This document shows, in pieces, positions 53,390 through 61,018 of a DNA stretch of 64,000 nucleotides (its first letter is position 1; each line of letters opens with the position of its first letter). The notes beneath the pieces were generated by a model, which ran no database searches, was not told the origin of the DNA, and worked only from the letters and a program-made list of their open reading frames with translations. The translations under genes and the position numbers were made by a program. Source of the stretch: Actinomycetota bacterium (GTDB lineage Bacteria > Actinomycetota > Actinomycetes > Actinomycetales > Dermatophilaceae); NCBI GenBank assembly GCA_020161845.1, contig JAIUNK010000007.1, positions 62,001 through 126,000 of the forward strand, read 5' to 3'.

Positions 53390-53580
53390 CAGGCGTCTCC
53401 ACCTGCGACGATGGTTCTCGATGGGTCGTCTGGTCGCCATTCTCGCGGCATTTCAGGACATTCGTCTAAGACAATGGTCCGGCAGGCCGATAGGGGATTC
53501 GGACGCACCGGGAATGCGTCCTGTGAATGGGGATGCGTCGCGCGGCGGGGGTCGTGGGCGCCTGGGGTAAGGGAATCACC

Positions 53581-53874
53581 ATGGACTCGCACAGCGCGAT
53601 GATCGGGCCGCGGACCGCGGTCTCCGCCTTGCAGACACTCCGCGACGCGGAGACGCTCGCGGCCTATATCGGCGTCTGCCCGACCTGCCTCGGCTGGGAC
53701 GACCCCGCCGCGGCGACGAGCGAGCGCACCGCGACCGCCGACCGCCCGGTCTGCCCGACCTGCGGGCTGTGCTCGGTCGAGTGGGACGTGGCCGTCGCCA
53801 TCGACGCACAGCTGGCCCGGATGCGGGGCGTGGCGGCGCTGGACGCGGCTCTTCGCGACGACGAGAACGCCTGA
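53581..53874 (+). CDS. Small double-CPTC protein, paralogue 1
   Basis: 97 residues from ATG 53581 with taaggga upstream. Two CPTC motifs (CPTCLGW near residue 34 and CPTCGL near 60) probably form one zinc site, followed by a conserved helix VEWDVAVAIDAQLARM..AALDAAL. No match to a known family. A similar gene follows at 54087, so they form a tandem pair. The spacer 53875-54086 has an AT-rich imperfect palindrome (taaacaac-gtcaaga-gttgttaa, 53968-53990) that could control the second gene. Confidence 0.72.
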   Translation: MDSHSAMIGPRTAVSALQTLRDAETLAAYIGVCPTCLGWDDPAAATSERTATADRPVCPTCGLCSVEWDVAVAIDAQLARMRGVAALDAALRDDENA

Positions 53875-54086: not shown

Positions 54087-54419
54087 ATGACCCGCACGAG
54101 TGCCACGATCAGCCGGTCGACCTCCGAGCACGGCATGCGCAACGCCGCCGTCCGGTCCGGGATCAGGTGCGAGTCCCCGGCGGTCGACACCTTGGCGGCC
54201 GCCGCCACCTGCCCGACCTGCCTGGCCGCGCCGCAGGGAATCCTCGACCCGCTGCCCGGGGCGACTCACCCTGGCGTGCGGCCCGCGGCCTGCCCGACCT
54301 GCGGCGTCACCTCGATCGAATTCGGCCTCGTCGTGGCCATCGACGACGTCCTCGGCGAGATGGTCGGTTTGGACCGGCTCGCCGCGGCCCTCGACGAGCA
54401 CATCCGCCCCGGCGGGTGA
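54087..54419 (+). CDS. Small double-CPTC protein, paralogue 2
   Basis: 110 residues from ATG 54087 with ggggagaag 8 bases upstream. It shares the layout of the preceding gene: CPTCLAA, a variable loop of about 24 residues with Pro/Gly, CPTCGVTS-IEFGLVVAID, then a helix VLGEMVGLDRLAAALDEH. The loop and N-terminal arm differ, so the paralogues are old. A 15-bp terminator follows. Zinc binding is inferred from the four Cys; function unknown. Confidence 0.72.
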   Translation: MTRTSATISRSTSEHGMRNAAVRSGIRCESPAVDTLAAAATCPTCLAAPQGILDPLPGATHPGVRPAACPTCGVTSIEFGLVVAIDDVLGEMVGLDRLAAALDEHIRPGG

Positions 54420-54472
54420 CTCCTCAGACGTTTTCTCGGCGCCGTCGTGCGGTCGGCACCATCACCAGAAAG

Positions 54473-54511
54473 ACTGCGGCGGACCCATCGTGGGGGTGGG
54501 TCCGCCGCAGT
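54473..54511 (+). terminator. Terminator after the second CPTC gene
   Basis: actgcggcggaccca (54473-54487) and tgggtccgccgcagt (54497-54511) form a perfect 15-bp stem with a 9-nt loop, 54 bp beyond the stop. A short tgtgtgt run follows. Confidence 0.8.
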
Positions 54512-54566
54512 GTGTGTCCGGTAGCCCTGGGTGCCTCGCGCCAACGGGAAGCGTTGCCGAAAACAC

Positions 54567-54618
54567 GAACAGACCCGGACGATCAGGAGCGCTGCTCCTG
54601 ACGCATCCGGGCCTGTTC
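54567..54618 (-). terminator. Extended two-part hairpin
   Basis: An outer stem (gaacagacccgga 54567-54579 with tccgggcctgttc 54606-54618, one mismatch) encloses a perfect inner stem (tcaggagc 54583-54590 with gctcctga 54594-54601). It lies about 190 bp after the histidine kinase stop on the minus strand and is a strong terminator, or a structured RNA. The rest of 54512-54810 is empty. Confidence 0.65.
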
Positions 54619-54810
54619 GAGACCCGTCCCCCGTGGCGGGCGGTGACCCTTCGGTCGTGTCGAGACCCCTGTCTCCCGACCCCCTCACTATGGGCGCGGC
54701 GGCACGACGGACACCAGCCGCGCGACCGGACATCCTACGTTCGACGGCATCTAGCGGTCGTGGATCCGTCGAAAGTTGGATCGCACGTCCAAGTTGACCA
54801 TCCGGTTCGC

Positions 54811-56058
54811 TCAGACGCGGGCGGCCGCGTCGCCGGCGGGACGGTAGGGGATGCGGGAGCGCACCACCCAGCGCCCGTCCTCGCGACCGGCGCTGAATGA
54901 GCCGTCCAGCAGCGACAACCGCTCCTCGAGCCCGGACAGGCCCAGGTGCGTCGAGGAGATCTCGCCCCGCCGTCGACGGCCGACGTCCTCGTTCGCGACG
55001 ACGATCGAGAGCGCGTCGCCATCGGCGGCGACGTCGACCCAGACCCGAGCGCCCTCCGGGGCGTGCTTGACGATATTGGTCGCCGACTCGCGCAACACCC
55101 GGTCCGCGGCCAGTTCGACGCTGCGCGGCATCGACTCGGCGTGACAACTGGACTCGACGGTGTAGCCCAGCGCCTTGAGCTGGTCGGCCACCGCGTCGAC
55201 CACGACGGCGACCGAGGCCTGCTGGGCCGCGCCGACCTCCGGGACTCCGTCGCTGGTGCGCAGGACCTGCAGGAGGCGCTTCAGCTCACCGAGCGCCCGG
55301 CGCGAGGTCTCCTCGATCACCCCTCGGGCGGCGGCGAGTTCCGTTTCGTCGGTGGTCAACCGCATGAGGCTGGCCTGCATCGCAATGATGGTCAGCTCGT
55401 GCGCCACGACGTCGTGCAGCTCTCGGGCGAGCAGGGACCGCTCGCGCTCGCGGGCGAGTTGCGCCTGCTCGGCGAGTTCGGTGACCCGCGCCTCCGCGGC
55501 CTGCCGGCGCAGCACCGTGTTGCCCAATAGCCACGCGGCGACCACGACGAAGGCGACCATCGGAAACTCGATCAGCAGGATGCTGCCGGTCTCATAGGGC
55601 GCGACGACCAGATACCAGGTCTTGACACTCACAAACAGCGCGAGGCAGATCATCGTGACGCGGCGGTCCCGACGGAACCCGCCCGCACCCGCGACGACGA
55701 CCGCGACCAGCGTGAGCATGGGGGCCACTGACCCGAACCGCGCGCTGTCCAGGAAAGCCACGTCGAGGACGAAGAGGGCCGCAGCCACGGCCATGCCGGC
55801 CAGGCTCCACCACCGCCGGCCCAGCGCCACCGCGATGACCGCCATGGTGGGGCCGATGGACAGGGTGGCCACCACGATCCGCTCGGTGGTCGCCACATCG
55901 ATCACGAGCGCCTTGCGGATGTCGGACATCGCCTGCAGCGACGCCCACACGATGAGACCCAAGGTGAGCCACCAACGCATCCCGCGCGCACCGCGCGCAG
56001 GGCTGATCTGGAGTCGTCGATTCTCGACGAGAAGGCCCGAGAGTTTCTCGTCCCTCAT
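54811..56058 (-). CDS. Sensor histidine kinase, HisKA_3 type, next to a secreted peptide gene
   Basis: 415 residues, ATG without a clear ribosome site. Five or six membrane helices occupy residues about 28-180, with no large outer domain. The phospho-acceptor block is [21 protein letters not shown] (about 215-235), with DRVLRESATNIVKHAP as N box and HLGLSGLEERLSLL as G box. A helical linker (RRQAAEARVTELAEQAQLARER) precedes the kinase core. The kinase, a 67-residue secreted peptide gene on the same strand and a divergent response regulator gene form a compact locus that looks like peptide sensing. The link is inferred from position. Confidence 0.93.
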   Translation of the reverse strand: MRDEKLSGLLVENRRLQISPARGARGMRWWLTLGLIVWASLQAMSDIRKALVIDVATTERIVVATLSIGPTMAVIAVALGRRWWSLAGMAVAAALFVLDVAFLDSARFGSVAPMLTLVAVVVAGAGGFRRDRRVTMICLALFVSVKTWYLVVAPYETGSILLIEFPMVAFVVVAAWLLGNTVLRRQAAEARVTELAEQAQLARERERSLLARELHDVVAHELTIIAMQASLMRLTTDETELAAARGVIEETSRRALGELKRLLQVLRTSDGVPEVGAAQQASVAVVVDAVADQLKALGYTVESSCHAESMPRSVELAADRVLRESATNIVKHAPEGARVWVDVAADGDALSIVVANEDVGRRRRGEISSTHLGLSGLEERLSLLDGSFSAGREDGRWVVRSRIPYRPAGDAAARV

Positions 56059-56173
56059 GGTGACAGGCTGGGACGATGCGGCGCCGTGGACACGGAACCT
56101 ACCCGATCACCCCGAGCTGAGGAATGGCTCCCGACGGTCTGCGGAGCGGCACGATGCGGAGGCGGTGCCGTGC

Positions 56174-56377
56174 TCAACGGCAGCCGGGCCACCACGGAAA
56201 GGCGCTGCACCAGTCATCCCAGCCGTAGGGCTGGGCCACCCCGGAGCCGGCCAGCTGGGCGGCGGTGGTGACGGTGGCCGTGGCGGGCGCGGCGGTGGCC
56301 GCGGCTGCGGTGCCGGGCAGCGAGGTGCTGAAGAGCACGGCGACGACCGCTGCGGTGGTCAAGAGGCGAGTACGCAT
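56174..56377 (-). CDS. Small secreted Trp/Cys-rich peptide
   Basis: 67 residues, ATG with aggag 6 bases upstream. A clear signal peptide (MRTRLLTTAAVVAVLFSTSL..GTAAAA) is followed by an Ala/Thr spacer and the striking C-terminus GWDDWCSAFPWWPGCR, with four Trp and two Cys. The ending is ribosomally encoded and could form a disulfide loop of about ten residues. The gene lies 115 bp upstream of a kinase gene on the same strand, with a weak hairpin between (cggcac 56147-56152/gtgccg 56165-56170), and the regulator gene diverges. It may be a pheromone, bacteriocin or envelope peptide. No named family is recognised. Confidence 0.75.
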   Translation of the reverse strand: MRTRLLTTAAVVAVLFSTSLPGTAAAATAAPATATVTTAAQLAGSGVAQPYGWDDWCSAFPWWPGCR

Positions 56378-56419
56378 CGATGCTCCTGGTGGGGCGAAGC
56401 ACTGTGGGGTGGGCGAAGC

Positions 56420-56434
56420 GACGACAATGTCGTC
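56420..56434. promoter_or_regulatory. 15-bp palindrome between the peptide and regulator genes
   Basis: gacgaca-a-tgtcgtc has perfect 7-bp arms. It sits midway in the 97-bp divergent spacer and is flanked by direct repeats of gggcgaagc, so it may be the binding site for the adjacent regulator. Confidence 0.5.
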
Positions 56435-56474
56435 TCAACGAGGTTAACCCAGCGAAGCAGGAACGGATATACCC

Positions 56475-57185
56475 ATGTCCCCGACCAGGGTCGTCATCGT
56501 GGACGACCAACAGCTCATGCTGCAGGCCCTCAAGGTCTTCGTCTCCCAGGCGCCCGACATGACCGTCGTCGGCACCGCGCACAACGGTGTCGCGGCCATC
56601 GAGGTGTGTGCGCAGCTCGACCCCGACGTGGTCCTCATGGACCTGCAGATGCCGGTCCTCAACGGGATCGATGCGACGCGACGCATCACCACGTTCAAAC
56701 CGCACGTCAAGGTCATCGCGGTCACGACCTTCGCCGGGCCCGAGGCCGTCGTCCCCGCCCTGCGCGCCGGCGCGGCCGGCTACCTGCTCAAGGACAGCGA
56801 GCCGGAGGTGCTGGTGCAGTCGATCCGGGACGTGCTGGAGGGGCGCAACGTCCTCTCCCCCGCGGTCACCGCCGCTCTGGTCGCCTCGGTCCGGTCAACC
56901 CCCGGGCCGCCGGGCGCGGTGCCGCTGGAGGTAGCGCCCGAGTCGCTGGTCGCCAACTTGACCGACCGCGAGGTGCAGGTGCTGGAGCTGCTCGCCGAGG
57001 GCTTGTCCAACGGTGAAATGGCGGTGGAGCTGGGCCTGACGGAGTCGGCCGTGAAGTCCCGCGTCAGCCAACTCACCCAGAAGCTCGGCGTCGAGAGCCG
57101 GGTGCAGGTGCTCGTGCGCGCCTGCGAACTGGGGCTGGTCCGGCCACGGCTGCGTCGGCCCCCAGCCGACAACCCACCCACGTGA
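56475..57185 (+). CDS. NarL-type response regulator
   Basis: 236 residues, ATG. Receiver with VVIVDDQQLMLQAL, phospho-Asp in VVLMDLQMPVLNG and Lys in YLLKDSEP; the linker is moderate in length; the HTH is NLTDREVQVLELLAEGLSNGEMAVEL. It is divergent from the peptide and kinase genes and is followed 68 bp later by an ABC exporter. Likely the output of the 54811 kinase and a candidate activator of the exporter and the peptide gene. Confidence 0.94.
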   Translation: MSPTRVVIVDDQQLMLQALKVFVSQAPDMTVVGTAHNGVAAIEVCAQLDPDVVLMDLQMPVLNGIDATRRITTFKPHVKVIAVTTFAGPEAVVPALRAGAAGYLLKDSEPEVLVQSIRDVLEGRNVLSPAVTAALVASVRSTPGPPGAVPLEVAPESLVANLTDREVQVLELLAEGLSNGEMAVELGLTESAVKSRVSQLTQKLGVESRVQVLVRACELGLVRPRLRRPPADNPPT

Positions 57186-57253
57186 CGGATGTCAGGGGTA
57201 CGTCGTGACAACCGCACCGGGCGCCCCAGGTCGCTGACCGACAAGCTCGAGGC

Positions 57254-58192
57254 ATGACGATCAGCCCGACCGACACCCCGTCGGCCACCCCCGACGCGCT
57301 CAGCCTGACCGGGCTGACCCGCAGTTTTGGGGCCGTCCGCGCGGTCGCCGGCCTCGATCTGAGCGTCCGGCCCGGCGAGGTGGTCGCCTTCCTCGGCCCC
57401 AACGGTGCCGGCAAGACCACGACCATCGACATGATCCTGGGCCTGGGGCGACCCGACGCCGGCTCCGTGCGGGTCTTCGGCATGACGCCCCGTCAGGCCG
57501 TCGACCGCGGGCTCGTCGCGGCCGTGCTGCAGACCGGCGGCCTGCTGCCGGACCTGTCCGTCCTGGAGACGGTGCAGCTGACCGCGAGCCTGTTCCCCGC
57601 CGCGATCCCCGCCACCGCGGCGTTGCAGCGGGCCGGCATCGCCGAGCTGAGCTCCCGCACGGTCAGTAGGTGTTCCGGCGGCGAACAACAGCGGCTCCGC
57701 TTCGCCATGGCGCTGGTCAGCGAGCCGGCGCTGCTGATCCTGGATGAGCCCACGACCGGACTCGACGTCGAAGGGCGGCGCCGGTTCTGGTCGGCCATCC
57801 ACGCCGACGCCGAACGCGGCCGAACGGTCCTGTTCGCGACCCACTACCTGGAGGAGGCCGACGAATACGCCGACCGGATCGTCCTGATGGCGCGCGGCCG
57901 GGTCGTCGCCGACGGGACAGTCGCGCAGATCCGCGCCGCCGTGGGGGGCCGGACCGTTCGAGCCACCCTGGGCTCACCGGACCTGACGCCGGACCTGACG
58001 CCAGTGCGCACCGCGCTGAGCGGGCTGGACGTGAGCGGACTCGACGTACGCGGCCGCACCCTCACCATCACCACCGGCGACTCCGACGCCGTCGCCCACG
58101 CTCTGCTGCGCGACCGGCTCGCCCACGATCTCGAGATCACCACGCGCGGTCTCGACGACGCCTTCCTCGCCCTGACCGGAGACCCCCGATGA
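57254..58192 (+). CDS. ABC exporter ATP-binding protein, DrrA-like
   Basis: 312 residues, ATG. Walker A is GPNGAGKTTT (about residue 48), the Q-loop follows in VLQTGGLLPDL, the signature is SRCSGGEQQRLRFA and Walker B LLILDEPTTGLD. The C-terminal extension after about 235 is beta-rich, as in DrrA/CcmA-type drug exporters. It is cotranslated with the ABC-2 permease (ATGA overlap). The signature has Cys before SGGEQ, a small deviation. Confidence 0.95.
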   Translation: MTISPTDTPSATPDALSLTGLTRSFGAVRAVAGLDLSVRPGEVVAFLGPNGAGKTTTIDMILGLGRPDAGSVRVFGMTPRQAVDRGLVAAVLQTGGLLPDLSVLETVQLTASLFPAAIPATAALQRAGIAELSSRTVSRCSGGEQQRLRFAMALVSEPALLILDEPTTGLDVEGRRRFWSAIHADAERGRTVLFATHYLEEADEYADRIVLMARGRVVADGTVAQIRAAVGGRTVRATLGSPDLTPDLTPVRTALSGLDVSGLDVRGRTLTITTGDSDAVAHALLRDRLAHDLEITTRGLDDAFLALTGDPR

Positions 58193-59025
58193 ACGCCCTC
58201 GCCGCCGCCGACCCGGCGCACGCACGCCCCGACGTCCCGCACCTCCTCGACACCACCGCGGTGACCAGCCGCCCCGCCGGCCGGCACGGCCTCAACCCGA
58301 CCCTGCTACGGATCGAGGCGCGCCGGGCCCTGCGCAACCGCAGCGGGCTGATCTTCGCCGTCATCATGCCGGTGGCGTTCTTCCTGATGTGGGGGCGCAA
58401 CCCGCAGTACGCCGACATCGGCTACGGCCGCGGCACGGTCAGCGCGACGATCATGACCGGAATGGCCCTCTACGGCGCCCTGATCGCCACGATCTCGGCC
58501 GGGGCCGCCGTCTCGCTGGAGCGTTCCACCGGCTGGAGTCGCCAGCTGCGGCTGACGCCGCTGTCGCCGACGGCGTACATCGCCCTGAAAGGGGCCGCCG
58601 GGATGCTCACCGGCGCGCTCGCGGTGGCGGCCGTGTACGCCGTGGCGGCCGGCACCGGAGTGCGCCTGCCGGCGGACCTGTGGCTGGCGACGGGCCTGGT
58701 CACGTGGCTGGGATCGGCGGTCTTCGCGGCGTTCGGGCTGTTCCTGGGCTACCTCTTCACCTCCGAGAACGCGATGCGGATCGTCGGGCCCGCGATGGCG
58801 CTGCTGGCCTTCCTCGGTGGGCTGTTCATGCCGCTGGACCAGATGGCCGACATCATCCAGTCGATCGCGCCGTACACCCCGATGTACGGGATTCACCAGC
58901 TGGCGCTCGCTCCCTATGGCGCCGGGGACTTCAGTTGGGCTGCCGTCGCCAATGTCACGGCGTGGTTGGCGGTCTTCGGCAGCGGCGCCGCATGGCTGAT
59001 GAGCAGGGACACCGAGCGGGTCTGA
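58189..59025 (+). CDS. ABC-2 type permease
   Basis: 278 residues from ATG 58189. A soluble N-terminus (about 45 residues) is followed by six membrane helices, including FAVIMPVAFFLMWG, MALYGALIATISAGAAV, GMLTGALAVAAVYAVAAG and AMALLAFLGGLFM. It pairs with the ATPase above and lies upstream of a kinase/regulator pair, the usual arrangement of drug- or lantibiotic-immunity exporters. Confidence 0.92.
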   Translation: MNALAAADPAHARPDVPHLLDTTAVTSRPAGRHGLNPTLLRIEARRALRNRSGLIFAVIMPVAFFLMWGRNPQYADIGYGRGTVSATIMTGMALYGALIATISAGAAVSLERSTGWSRQLRLTPLSPTAYIALKGAAGMLTGALAVAAVYAVAAGTGVRLPADLWLATGLVTWLGSAVFAAFGLFLGYLFTSENAMRIVGPAMALLAFLGGLFMPLDQMADIIQSIAPYTPMYGIHQLALAPYGAGDFSWAAVANVTAWLAVFGSGAAWLMSRDTERV

Positions 59026-59127
59026 CGGGCCGGACCGGCGGTGGGCGATGATCGAGGCCGAACGAGAAGCCCTACCCAGAAGCCGAACTCCAGCCCAGGA
59101 CCCCAGCACAGGAGCGTGACGCCGCCG

Positions 59128-60375
59128 ATGGCCCTTCCCGGAGCAGAGCCCGCCCCCGGCACCGCGCCGCGCGCGCGGGTGGCCCGCGGGACGACGTGGG
59201 GCCCGGTGATCGGCGTCGTCTGGATCATCTTCTGGCTGGTCATGCTGATGCAGTCGGTCACCGCGGCGGTCGCCCGCGGCGACGACCGGGGGTGGCTGGC
59301 GACGGGCGCGTACGTCGTGGGGGCTGCGGCGTACAGCGTGGCCTGCTTTCACGGCTTCGTCCGCCGCCGCCACGGCGAGACGGTCCGCTCGGCCGTGGTC
59401 GCCGCCGGGGTCGGCGCTGTCGCGACCGCGGTGGCTGTCGCGGCCATCGGGGCGCCGGGCTACGACCTGGTGCCCTATGTCGCGGTGGCCCTGGTGGCGG
59501 CGCTGCCGCTGCGCTACAGCCTGCCGTTCACCGGCACAGCGCTGATCGGCCTGTGGGTGGTGCTGCTGCGGGTGGACCAGCTGGAGGACACCAGCGGCAT
59601 GTTCATCGGCGCCGTGATCGCGACGCTCGGCACCGGGATGGGCCGGTTCTCTGTGGAGCGGGGGCTGGCGGCGCAGCGGTACGCGGAGGAGGCCCACGAA
59701 CTGCAACTCCAGGACGAACGCAACCGGATGGCCCGCGACCTGCACGACATCCTGGGGCACTCGTTGACCGTGATCGCCCTCAAGGCCGACCTGGCCGGCA
59801 AGCTCGTCGACCGGGATCCGGGTGGGGCGAAGCGCGAGCTCGGCGAGCTGCAGGGGCTGGCCCGTTCGGCGCTCGCCGACGTGCGGGCCACCGTGCACAA
59901 CTACCGGGAGATGTCGCTGTCGGCCGAGCTGGTGCGGGCCCGGCAGGCGCTGACCGACGCCTCGATCCGGGCGGAGCTGCCGGGCACTGTCGACGACGTG
60001 AACCCGGAGCTGCGGGAGCTGTTCGCCTGGGCGGTCCGCGAGGCGACCACGAACGTCGTGCGGCATTCCGGCGCCACCCGCTGCCGGATCACCCTGGCTC
60101 GGGACCGGTTGGAGGTGACCGACGACGGGCGTGGCCCCATCGGGCCGGCCGACGGACATGGCGAGGGACACGTCGGGGGCCATGGGCTGGCCGGGCTGCG
60201 GGACCGGGCCGCTCGGGTCGGGGCCCTGGTCGAGACCGGGCCGGCGGACCCGGCGGGGCAGGCGGACCGGTCGGGGCCGGCGGGCCGGTCGGGGCCGGCG
60301 GGCCGGGTGGGGCCGGCGGGCAGCGGCGGGCCGGCCCGGCCCGGATTCCGGCTGGTCGTGCGGGAGGGACTGTGA
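59128..60375 (+). CDS. Sensor histidine kinase, DesK-like
   Basis: 415 residues with ATG 59128 assumed. A GTG at 59116 is in frame but only one base from aggag, so the choice is not firm. Membrane helices fill the first 165 residues. The phospho-acceptor is MARDLHDILGHSLTVIALK; the N box is WAVREATTNVVRHSG and the G box GHGLAGLRDRAARVG. Between the G box and the final strand FRLVVREGL lies an unusual collagen-like insert (about 372-402) with repeated GPAGRSGPAGR. It probably controls the exporter upstream. Confidence 0.92.
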   Translation: MALPGAEPAPGTAPRARVARGTTWGPVIGVVWIIFWLVMLMQSVTAAVARGDDRGWLATGAYVVGAAAYSVACFHGFVRRRHGETVRSAVVAAGVGAVATAVAVAAIGAPGYDLVPYVAVALVAALPLRYSLPFTGTALIGLWVVLLRVDQLEDTSGMFIGAVIATLGTGMGRFSVERGLAAQRYAEEAHELQLQDERNRMARDLHDILGHSLTVIALKADLAGKLVDRDPGGAKRELGELQGLARSALADVRATVHNYREMSLSAELVRARQALTDASIRAELPGTVDDVNPELRELFAWAVREATTNVVRHSGATRCRITLARDRLEVTDDGRGPIGPADGHGEGHVGGHGLAGLRDRAARVGALVETGPADPAGQADRSGPAGRSGPAGRVGPAGSGGPARPGFRLVVREGL

Positions 60376-60394
60376 CACGAGGCAGGCTGGGCCC

Positions 60395-61018
60395 ATGACG
60401 ATCCGGGTACTCCTGGCCGACGACCAGGCGTTGGTCCGTGGGGCGCTGGCGGCGTTGCTGACGTTGGAGTCCGACCTGGAGGTGGTCGGGCAGGTGGGGC
60501 GCGGCGACGAGGTGGTCGCGGCCTGCCGGGCCTGCACCCCGCCGCCGGACGTCGTCCTGATGGACGTCGAGATGCCGGGGATGGACGGGCTCGCCGCGAC
60601 CGCCGAGCTGCGCCGGGCGATGCCCGCGGTCAAGGTGCTGATCGTCACGACGTTCGGTCGGCCGGGCTTCCTGAAGCGCGCGATGAGCAGCGGGGCCGCG
60701 GGGTTCGTCGTGAAGGACACCCCGGCGGACGAGCTGGCGGCGGCGGTCCGGCGGGTGGCGGCCGGGCTGCGGGTGGTGGACCCGGCGCTGGCAGCGGACT
60801 CGCTGGTGCTCGGGGACTCGCCGCTGACTCCGCGCGAGGCCGAGGTGCTGCAGGCCGCGGCGGACGGCGCGACGGTCGCGGTGATCGCCGGCCGGGTACA
60901 TCTGTCGGAAGGGACGGTGCGCAACCACCTCTCGGCGGTGATGGGCAAGACCGGCGCCGGGACGCGCGCGGAGGCCGTGCGGGTCGCGATCGCCAACGGC
61001 TGGATCGTCGCCACCTGA
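60395..61018 (+). CDS. NarL-type response regulator, DesR-like
   Basis: 207 residues from ATG 60395, 19 bp after the kinase. Receiver with VLLADDQALVRGAL, phospho-Asp in VVLMDVEMPGMDG and Lys in FVVKDTPA. The HTH region is PLTPREAEVLQAAADGATVAVIAGRVHLSEGTVRNHL. Partner of the DesK-like kinase. The spacer after it (61019-61452) contains only repeats and hairpins. Confidence 0.94.
   Translation: MTIRVLLADDQALVRGALAALLTLESDLEVVGQVGRGDEVVAACRACTPPPDVVLMDVEMPGMDGLAATAELRRAMPAVKVLIVTTFGRPGFLKRAMSSGAAGFVVKDTPADELAAAVRRVAAGLRVVDPALAADSLVLGDSPLTPREAEVLQAAADGATVAVIAGRVHLSEGTVRNHLSAVMGKTGAGTRAEAVRVAIANGWIVAT

Follow-up and report, generated by a model that had tools for sequence, protein, structure and literature searches.

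The locus

The window (the whole stretch of 64,000 nucleotides analysed here, taken from contig JAIUNK010000007.1 of a member of the Dermatophilaceae) carries, between a sensor kinase gene and a divergently oriented response regulator gene, a gene of 67 codons, whose signal peptide, strong ribosome-binding site and Cys- and Trp-containing end had been pointed out in a preliminary description and were confirmed by reading of the frame. The same holds for the arrangement described around it: the kinase lies on the strand of the peptide gene, the regulator diverges across a palindrome and two ABC transporter genes follow downstream of the regulator. The features are the following:

56174..56377, minus strand: secreted-peptide gene, precursor of 67 aa (frame reading, family alignments)
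56383..56387, minus strand: AGGAG ribosome-binding site, five bases 5' of the peptide ATG (sequence)
56297..56377, minus strand: Sec-type signal peptide, about residues 1-27 (cleavage site placed by eye, not by a program)
56222..56296, minus strand: variable linker, ending in GVAQPYG, possible processing region
56177..56221, minus strand: C-terminal core WDDWCSAFPWWPGCR, candidate mature signal (sequence, family alignments)
56180..56209, minus strand: Cys57 to Cys66, candidate disulfide ring, C-x8-C
54811..56058, minus strand: DesK-type HisKA_3 sensor kinase, 415 aa (Pfam HisKA_3 4e-14; hydropathy; PDB profile match to DesK)
56475..57185, plus strand: NarL/LuxR-type response regulator, 236 aa, divergent (Response_reg 2.1e-27, GerE 6e-15)
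56420..56434, no strand: palindrome GACGACA-A-TGTCGTC between the peptide and regulator genes, possible regulator site
57254-58192, plus strand: ABC ATPase, downstream of the regulator (Pfam)
58189-59025, plus strand: ABC2 permease, after the ABC ATPase (Pfam)

The signal peptide reaches a hydropathy of 2.57 over 12 residues, and WDDWCSAFPWWPGCR, with two Cys and four Trp, forms the very end of the precursor. The kinase gene begins 115 bases past the peptide gene, and an intergenic region of 97 bp separates the peptide gene from the divergent regulator gene. The palindrome in this region should be regarded as only mildly unusual, since a perfect arm at least as long as its own appeared in 17 of 500 base shuffles of the 97 bp. 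No sigma-70-like promoter or terminator was found within 54400-57300, no attenuator between the peptide and kinase genes (z 1.39) and, by eye, no motif across genera that could be a common regulator site; promoter-like words are conserved inside genera. In the intergenic regions of ten g122 loci (L203-L218) a TATATAAG-like word is situated shortly 5' of the peptide ATG, which suggests very short leaders in these loci.

Two further groups of genes surround the unit. On its one side, two small CPTC...CPTC zinc-ribbon-like proteins are encoded at 53578-53874 and 54087-54419 (plus strand), neither matching a Pfam family at cut-off; related copies exist at the syntenic loci of the genomes G001 and G003. 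On the other side, 57254-61018 (plus strand) comprises the ABC pair, which is DrrA/DrrB-like, followed by a second HisKA_3/NarL pair, to which the ABC pair may belong.

Search for related peptides

When the full-length window peptide was compared with 58 genomes, only the window itself and weak matches were obtained, the best other match (4.1e-4) being a 198-aa frame in G033 with neither a kinase nor a two-Cys end. This plain homology route, which also included tblastn against plasmids, yielded no usable homologue, because matches resembling signal peptides dominate and the core is variable.

The kinase served as the second query. Among 149 genomes of the family, 105 had some kinase match at 1e-20 and 30 loci were examined; in G108, G121, G084, G112 and G126 the interval from the kinase to a divergent regulator contains a small frame with a two-Cys end. 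More extensive searches brought in G207, G298, G351, G211 and G751 as well as three named Paeniglutamicibacter/Arthrobacter strains, and the locus L072 of G482 carries the peptide too. Paeniglutamicibacter psychrophenolicus (L091) and Micrococcus lylae (L101) are named species in which the system occurs. In family f6 the kinase was found at 1e-35 in 47 of 178 genomes, and the peptide was present in 43 of the 46 examined (G1168, whose kinase lies on a contig end, being excluded). Class-wide, a kinase search with alignment A1 had matches in 7 of 394 genomes, of which G751 alone carries the peptide, and a search with the broad alignment A4 matched 76 of 197. The kinase of Arthrobacter sp. C2 found nothing in family f19 (0/199 at 1e-40), which was the wrong family.

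The family can also be reached from the peptide. With the kinases ignored, 396 genomes were searched with a profile built from 14 peptides; the best 30 matches were followed and gave 29 new loci, five of them training members and 24 others. A HisKA_3 kinase is in reach at two of the 24, and both possess a two-Cys core: G474 (L178) shows the full layout with divergent regulator and the core MFCKLAGWLCPK, and G071 (L185) has a core-like end, NWFCQMFPRFCR (L185:1498-1650), before a kinase on the same strand. At L185 the regulator is in tandem, the kinase falls outside the clade described below, the start is unclear and the signal peptide is not convincing; this locus suggests that the peptide is able to accompany other kinases too. 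The remaining 22 loci have neither kinase nor regulator and match mainly over the signal peptide.

At E 0.1, Pfam contains no family for the window peptide, and a scan of 14 members returned no fitting family, the best matches being scattered and weak (NCBIfam 0.0072, Pfam 0.0091). Solved structures matched the peptide profile weakly (best 0.0015), none of the matches extending to the first Cys. Such peptides are not described in the titles and abstracts of the open literature searched, a search lying mostly outside subscription papers, and an actinobacterial peptide of this kind is not mentioned in the available portions of PMC8467076, PMC8895600, PMC3466318, PMC4748050 and PMC13220807. A family of small secreted peptides beside one kinase type in many actinobacteria is apparently undescribed.

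Position-specific recurrence

For counting, a uniform rule was applied to distinct kinase loci with a match of at least 60 bits: an ATG or GTG frame of 25-100 aa with a hydrophobic start and two Cys near its C-terminus, with 300-1100 bases between its end and the kinase core downstream. Weaker loci were excluded (for example L055 in G113, which is divergent and without a visible peptide), of the peptide-first loci L165-L193 only L178 was counted and the tandem set does not include L185. By this rule, 53 of the 62 divergent kinase/regulator pairs possess the peptide, and L036, which starts with TTG and is missed by the rule, is the 54th. The preliminary description had proposed to look for homologues beside HisKA_3 kinases, and this is where they are (54/62), which supports its idea of the peptide as a ligand. 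The opposite strand of the divergent windows gave 3/62 and shuffled windows 63/1240; in tandem kinase/regulator loci the rule found no peptide (0/94), and neither did it in the tandem loci of a second control from the A4 search (0/28), made up of 29 loci plus the window (28 tandem, one other, one too short; 0 peptides). The recurrence of a two-Cys signal-peptide frame at the same place is more than chance.

Of 11 loci that have a different layout or no regulator in reach, four were positive (Pseudopropionibacterium massiliense, Arachnia propionica, Micrococcus lylae and G1136), all four resembling real members; in M. lylae the regulator is upstream on the same strand. In P. massiliense a gene judged transposase-like by eye lies between kinase and regulator (L086:7863-8984). 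In 1.93 Mb of DNA, counting loci that overlap, a strict core combined with a signal-like start was present in 47 distinct frames, and each of these lies upstream of a HisKA_3 kinase; this shows specificity rather than an independent rate, since the DNA was enriched for such loci and the rule had been learnt from them.

Conserved frame and variable ring

Exactly two Cys are present in 55 of 58 peptides, spaced by six residues in 45 of them, by eight in six (including the window), by five in four and otherwise in three; the second Cys lies at most two residues from the end in 54. The two Cys are the sole invariant columns among 48 aligned peptides. The typical core can be written as C-x2-[YFW]-[GP]-x2-C: of the 37 different rings with six residues, 36 have Gly or Pro as their fourth residue and 30 have Tyr, Phe or Trp as their third, and the position two before the first Cys is most often occupied by Trp (20/37). 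Aromatic residues make up 26.6% of the rings versus 3.7% of the linkers. Most members, as judged by eye, appear to carry cleavable AxA-type signal peptides and a variable linker. Four g92 peptides (L231:2376-2528, L232:2213-2365, L236:3160-3312, L237:1952-2104) have an apparently uncleaved membrane helix and a similar core, beginning with CRAFP, and the G121 peptide is only 32 aa long. A Gly is found at -4 to -13 before the core in 52 of 57 peptides (shuffled mean 41.4), most distinctly in f6 loci, which have Pro-Ala-Gly at -10; as a sign of a processing site this is suggestive at most.

Selection was measured in relatives, the window copy having no close relative for comparison. The ratio pN/pS for signal, linker and core was 0.17, 0.30 and 0.14 at nine loci of g357 (the genus of the Paeniglutamicibacter and Arthrobacter sp. 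C2 sequences), 0.26, 0.51 and 0.48 at ten g122 loci and 0.51, 0.71 and 0.50 at six g346 loci; no segment reaches 1 in any of the three genera, which shows that the frame is selected as a protein in these relatives. Within this fixed frame the ring residues vary: the ring differs in each of the ten g122 species while its Tyr-Gly is invariant, and in g357 one ring is common to seven of nine loci. Specificity groups would be expected to show such a pattern.

The window peptide itself stands at the margin of the family. In leave-one-out tests the full profile placed it first of 922 frames with a weak E of 4.4e-4, the core alone also placed it first but weakly (E 0.11), and with a five-row core model it was outside the four best frames. 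Its core is therefore an outlier, and its membership rests on place and pattern together; it fits the definition of the family as a signal-peptide precursor with two C-terminal Cys between a divergent NarL-type regulator and a kinase of the clade.

Kinase clade and conserved neighbours

The window kinase shows five hydropathy peaks before the phospho-His and no visible large outer domain; the sensors of 13 kinases examined have three to five such peaks. A search of the kinase profile against PDB matched DesK (3gig, 3.6e-26) and VraS (4gt8, 7.1e-8), and models of LiaS and UhpB match the window system far below their cut-offs. In a FastTree phylogeny of 168 kinase cores, a single clade of 69 (branch support only 65) takes in all 58 kinases linked to a peptide; the remainder of it consists of eight divergent peptide-less kinases, two others and one tandem (labels of peptide-less loci assigned by hand), and 94 of 95 tandem kinases are outside; with L185 added, 58 of 59 peptide-linked kinases are inside (support 64). 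The peptide is thus nearly restricted to one kinase clade.

Among 23 flanks (22 with peptide; genes of at least 90 aa), kinases and regulators each recur as a family in 22 loci, followed by ABC ATPases (6/23), and no exporter, protease or modifying enzyme of at least 90 aa is conserved. Kinase and regulator being the only conserved neighbours, the ABC exporter is to be placed outside the unit.

Distances between peptide cores correlate with those between kinases (r 0.60 for the sensor, 0.70 for the catalytic part). Given the catalytic part, the partial correlation of sensor and peptide was -0.09 (4709/5000 permutations as high) and that with the ring only 0.04 (1032/5000 permutations as high); the catalytic part stays correlated with the peptide (partial 0.46; 0/5000 permutations). 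An extra coevolution of sensor and peptide was rejected on this negative partial Mantel test, the sensor, whose distances are high (mean 0.77), adding nothing beyond the catalytic part.

Relatives without the peptide

The genome of the window shares its GTDB genus with G001, in which the kinase match is 43%, the same as in Austwickia chelonae (contig NZ_BAGZ01000016.1). In the two nearest relatives, G001 and G003, kinase and regulator are kept and the peptide is absent at the syntenic locus, which has the order of the window (PutA, GDSL protein, CPTC proteins, named by eye, kinase, regulator) and a gap 274 bases shorter. The DrrA/DrrB-like pair is absent there as well; a distant ABC ATPase (27-28%) is found further on, behind another kinase/regulator pair. 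According to the preliminary description, close relatives that keep the two-component genes and lack the peptide would speak against a signalling locus; this is the situation in G001 and G003, whereas the family as a whole does not show it.

The clade contains six more divergent loci with no peptide, one in each of three g92 species (out of seven), in G002, in G415 and in a Rothia MAG, so that the complete set is L032/L061, L033/L062, L038, L077, L090, L224, L225 and L233. A 48-peptide profile was run on twelve whole genomes, including seven of the eight peptide-less ones and excluding the Rothia MAG; three expected positives were recovered, and in the seven peptide-less genomes all matches end before the first Cys. 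Based on their gene content, it is possible that these are receiver-only species.

Alternative explanations

That the short frame is spurious, or a non-coding stretch in the leader of the kinase, might be argued as follows: chance frames abound in high-GC DNA, the full-length search of 58 genomes returned no homologue that held up and selection is not measurable on the window copy. The position-specific recurrence, the purifying selection in three genera and the discovery of members from the peptide side largely contradict it, and we regard it as extremely improbable. The Trp-rich core with two Cys and the adjoining ABC efflux pair could instead point to a bacteriocin-like antimicrobial, the own kinase of which senses the peptide or its damage; a bacteriocin with its own immunity exporter had indeed been suggested for this locus. 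This suggestion found no support, as only kinase and regulator are conserved in the 23 flanks, with no immunity, exporter or processing gene of at least 90 aa (a tiny immunity gene could be missed at this size), and as the ABC pair has no counterpart at the syntenic loci of G001 and G003 and would more probably be a partner of the second kinase/regulator pair. An antimicrobial therefore appears quite improbable.

The peptide could also be a small envelope-bound accessory protein, which sets or inhibits the kinase of the same cell, rather than a signal between cells. The close pairing of peptide and kinase would fit such a modulator in cis, as would the four g92 members that keep a membrane helix with no clear cleavable signal, and a core at the extreme C-terminus could dock directly on the sensor. 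However, most members combine an apparent cleavable AxA-type signal peptide (by eye) with a variable linker, and ring residues differ between sister species, which is more in line with a released signal that bears specificity; we consider a modulator in cis unlikely.

Comparison with known systems

In ComQXPA of Bacillus, a secreted peptide gene lies beside genes for a multi-helix membrane kinase and a LuxR-type regulator, and ComX carries a prenylated Trp. ComP senses the modified ComX peptide (PMC8895600). The peptide locus of the window resembles ComX-ComP-ComA in having a multi-helix membrane HisKA_3 kinase with a NarL-type regulator, but its order is divergent regulator, peptide, kinase, the peptide has a Sec-type signal sequence and two Cys, and no ComQ-like isoprenyl transferase gene is conserved in the 23 flanks (genes of at least 90 aa). 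The agr system of staphylococci likewise combines a variable ring peptide on a conserved frame with its own membrane kinase; its ring is a thiolactone and its regulator of the LytTR type. The present family shares the variable rings on a conserved frame and the pairing with a membrane kinase, whereas, in comparison to AgrB-AgrD-AgrC-AgrA, the linked genes of the 23 flanks include no third conserved neighbour that could be AgrB, the regulator output domain is of the GerE/LuxR type, the kinase core is DesK-like and the ring would be a disulfide.

The double-glycine pheromones (ComC/Blp type) of streptococci are short peptides with a kinase and a regulator, and so far the likeness holds; the peptides described here, however, have a Sec-type signal peptide and no GG leader, no exporter is conserved with them and the DrrA/DrrB-like ABC pair of the window scores below the cut-offs of the DrrA and DrrB models. 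With respect to two-component systems in general, the kinase profile matches DesK and VraS, in line with HisKA_3 kinases of the DesK/LiaS/VraS type and their NarL-type regulators; unlike the peptide locus of the window, tandem loci of this type are peptide-less by the uniform rule in both tandem sets, the exception being L185, found peptide-first. A class II bacteriocin locus would include an immunity gene and a dedicated exporter; no exporter is conserved in the 23 flanks, while a tiny immunity gene could be missed among genes of at least 90 aa.

Proposed mechanism and significance

Judging from gene content and sequence, the three genes probably constitute a self-contained peptide-pheromone module with a Sec-exported, disulfide-ring peptide. 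The precursor would be exported by the general Sec route and its signal peptide removed; the C-terminal part of about 15 residues, presumably after trimming in the linker, would close into a small ring via the two Cys, with an aromatic-[Gly/Pro] turn inside. The neighbouring DesK-type kinase would bind and read this ring peptide outside the cell through its membrane-embedded sensor and would in turn phosphorylate the divergent NarL-type regulator, and the latter may control the divergent promoter region, and with it its own module, as well as other genes as output. A Sec-exported peptide requires no dedicated exporter, and no maturation enzyme was found linked to the peptide gene in the 23 flanks (genes of at least 90 aa). 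What is conserved is the gene with its place, order and orientation.

On balance, we lean towards a widespread, previously undescribed pheromone family of actinobacteria, whose Sec-exported disulfide rings would share an aromatic-Gly/Pro turn and carry species-specific ring residues, with one DesK-type clade as reader, no dedicated exporter or maturation enzyme and some species, including the nearest relatives of the window, as receivers only. If this is true, the occurrence of a compact peptide-kinase-regulator unit in several families would open peptide communication in this phylum to direct tests; candidate signal sequences could be read from genomes and specificity groups predicted, and the peptide-less relatives would represent natural receivers without the signal.
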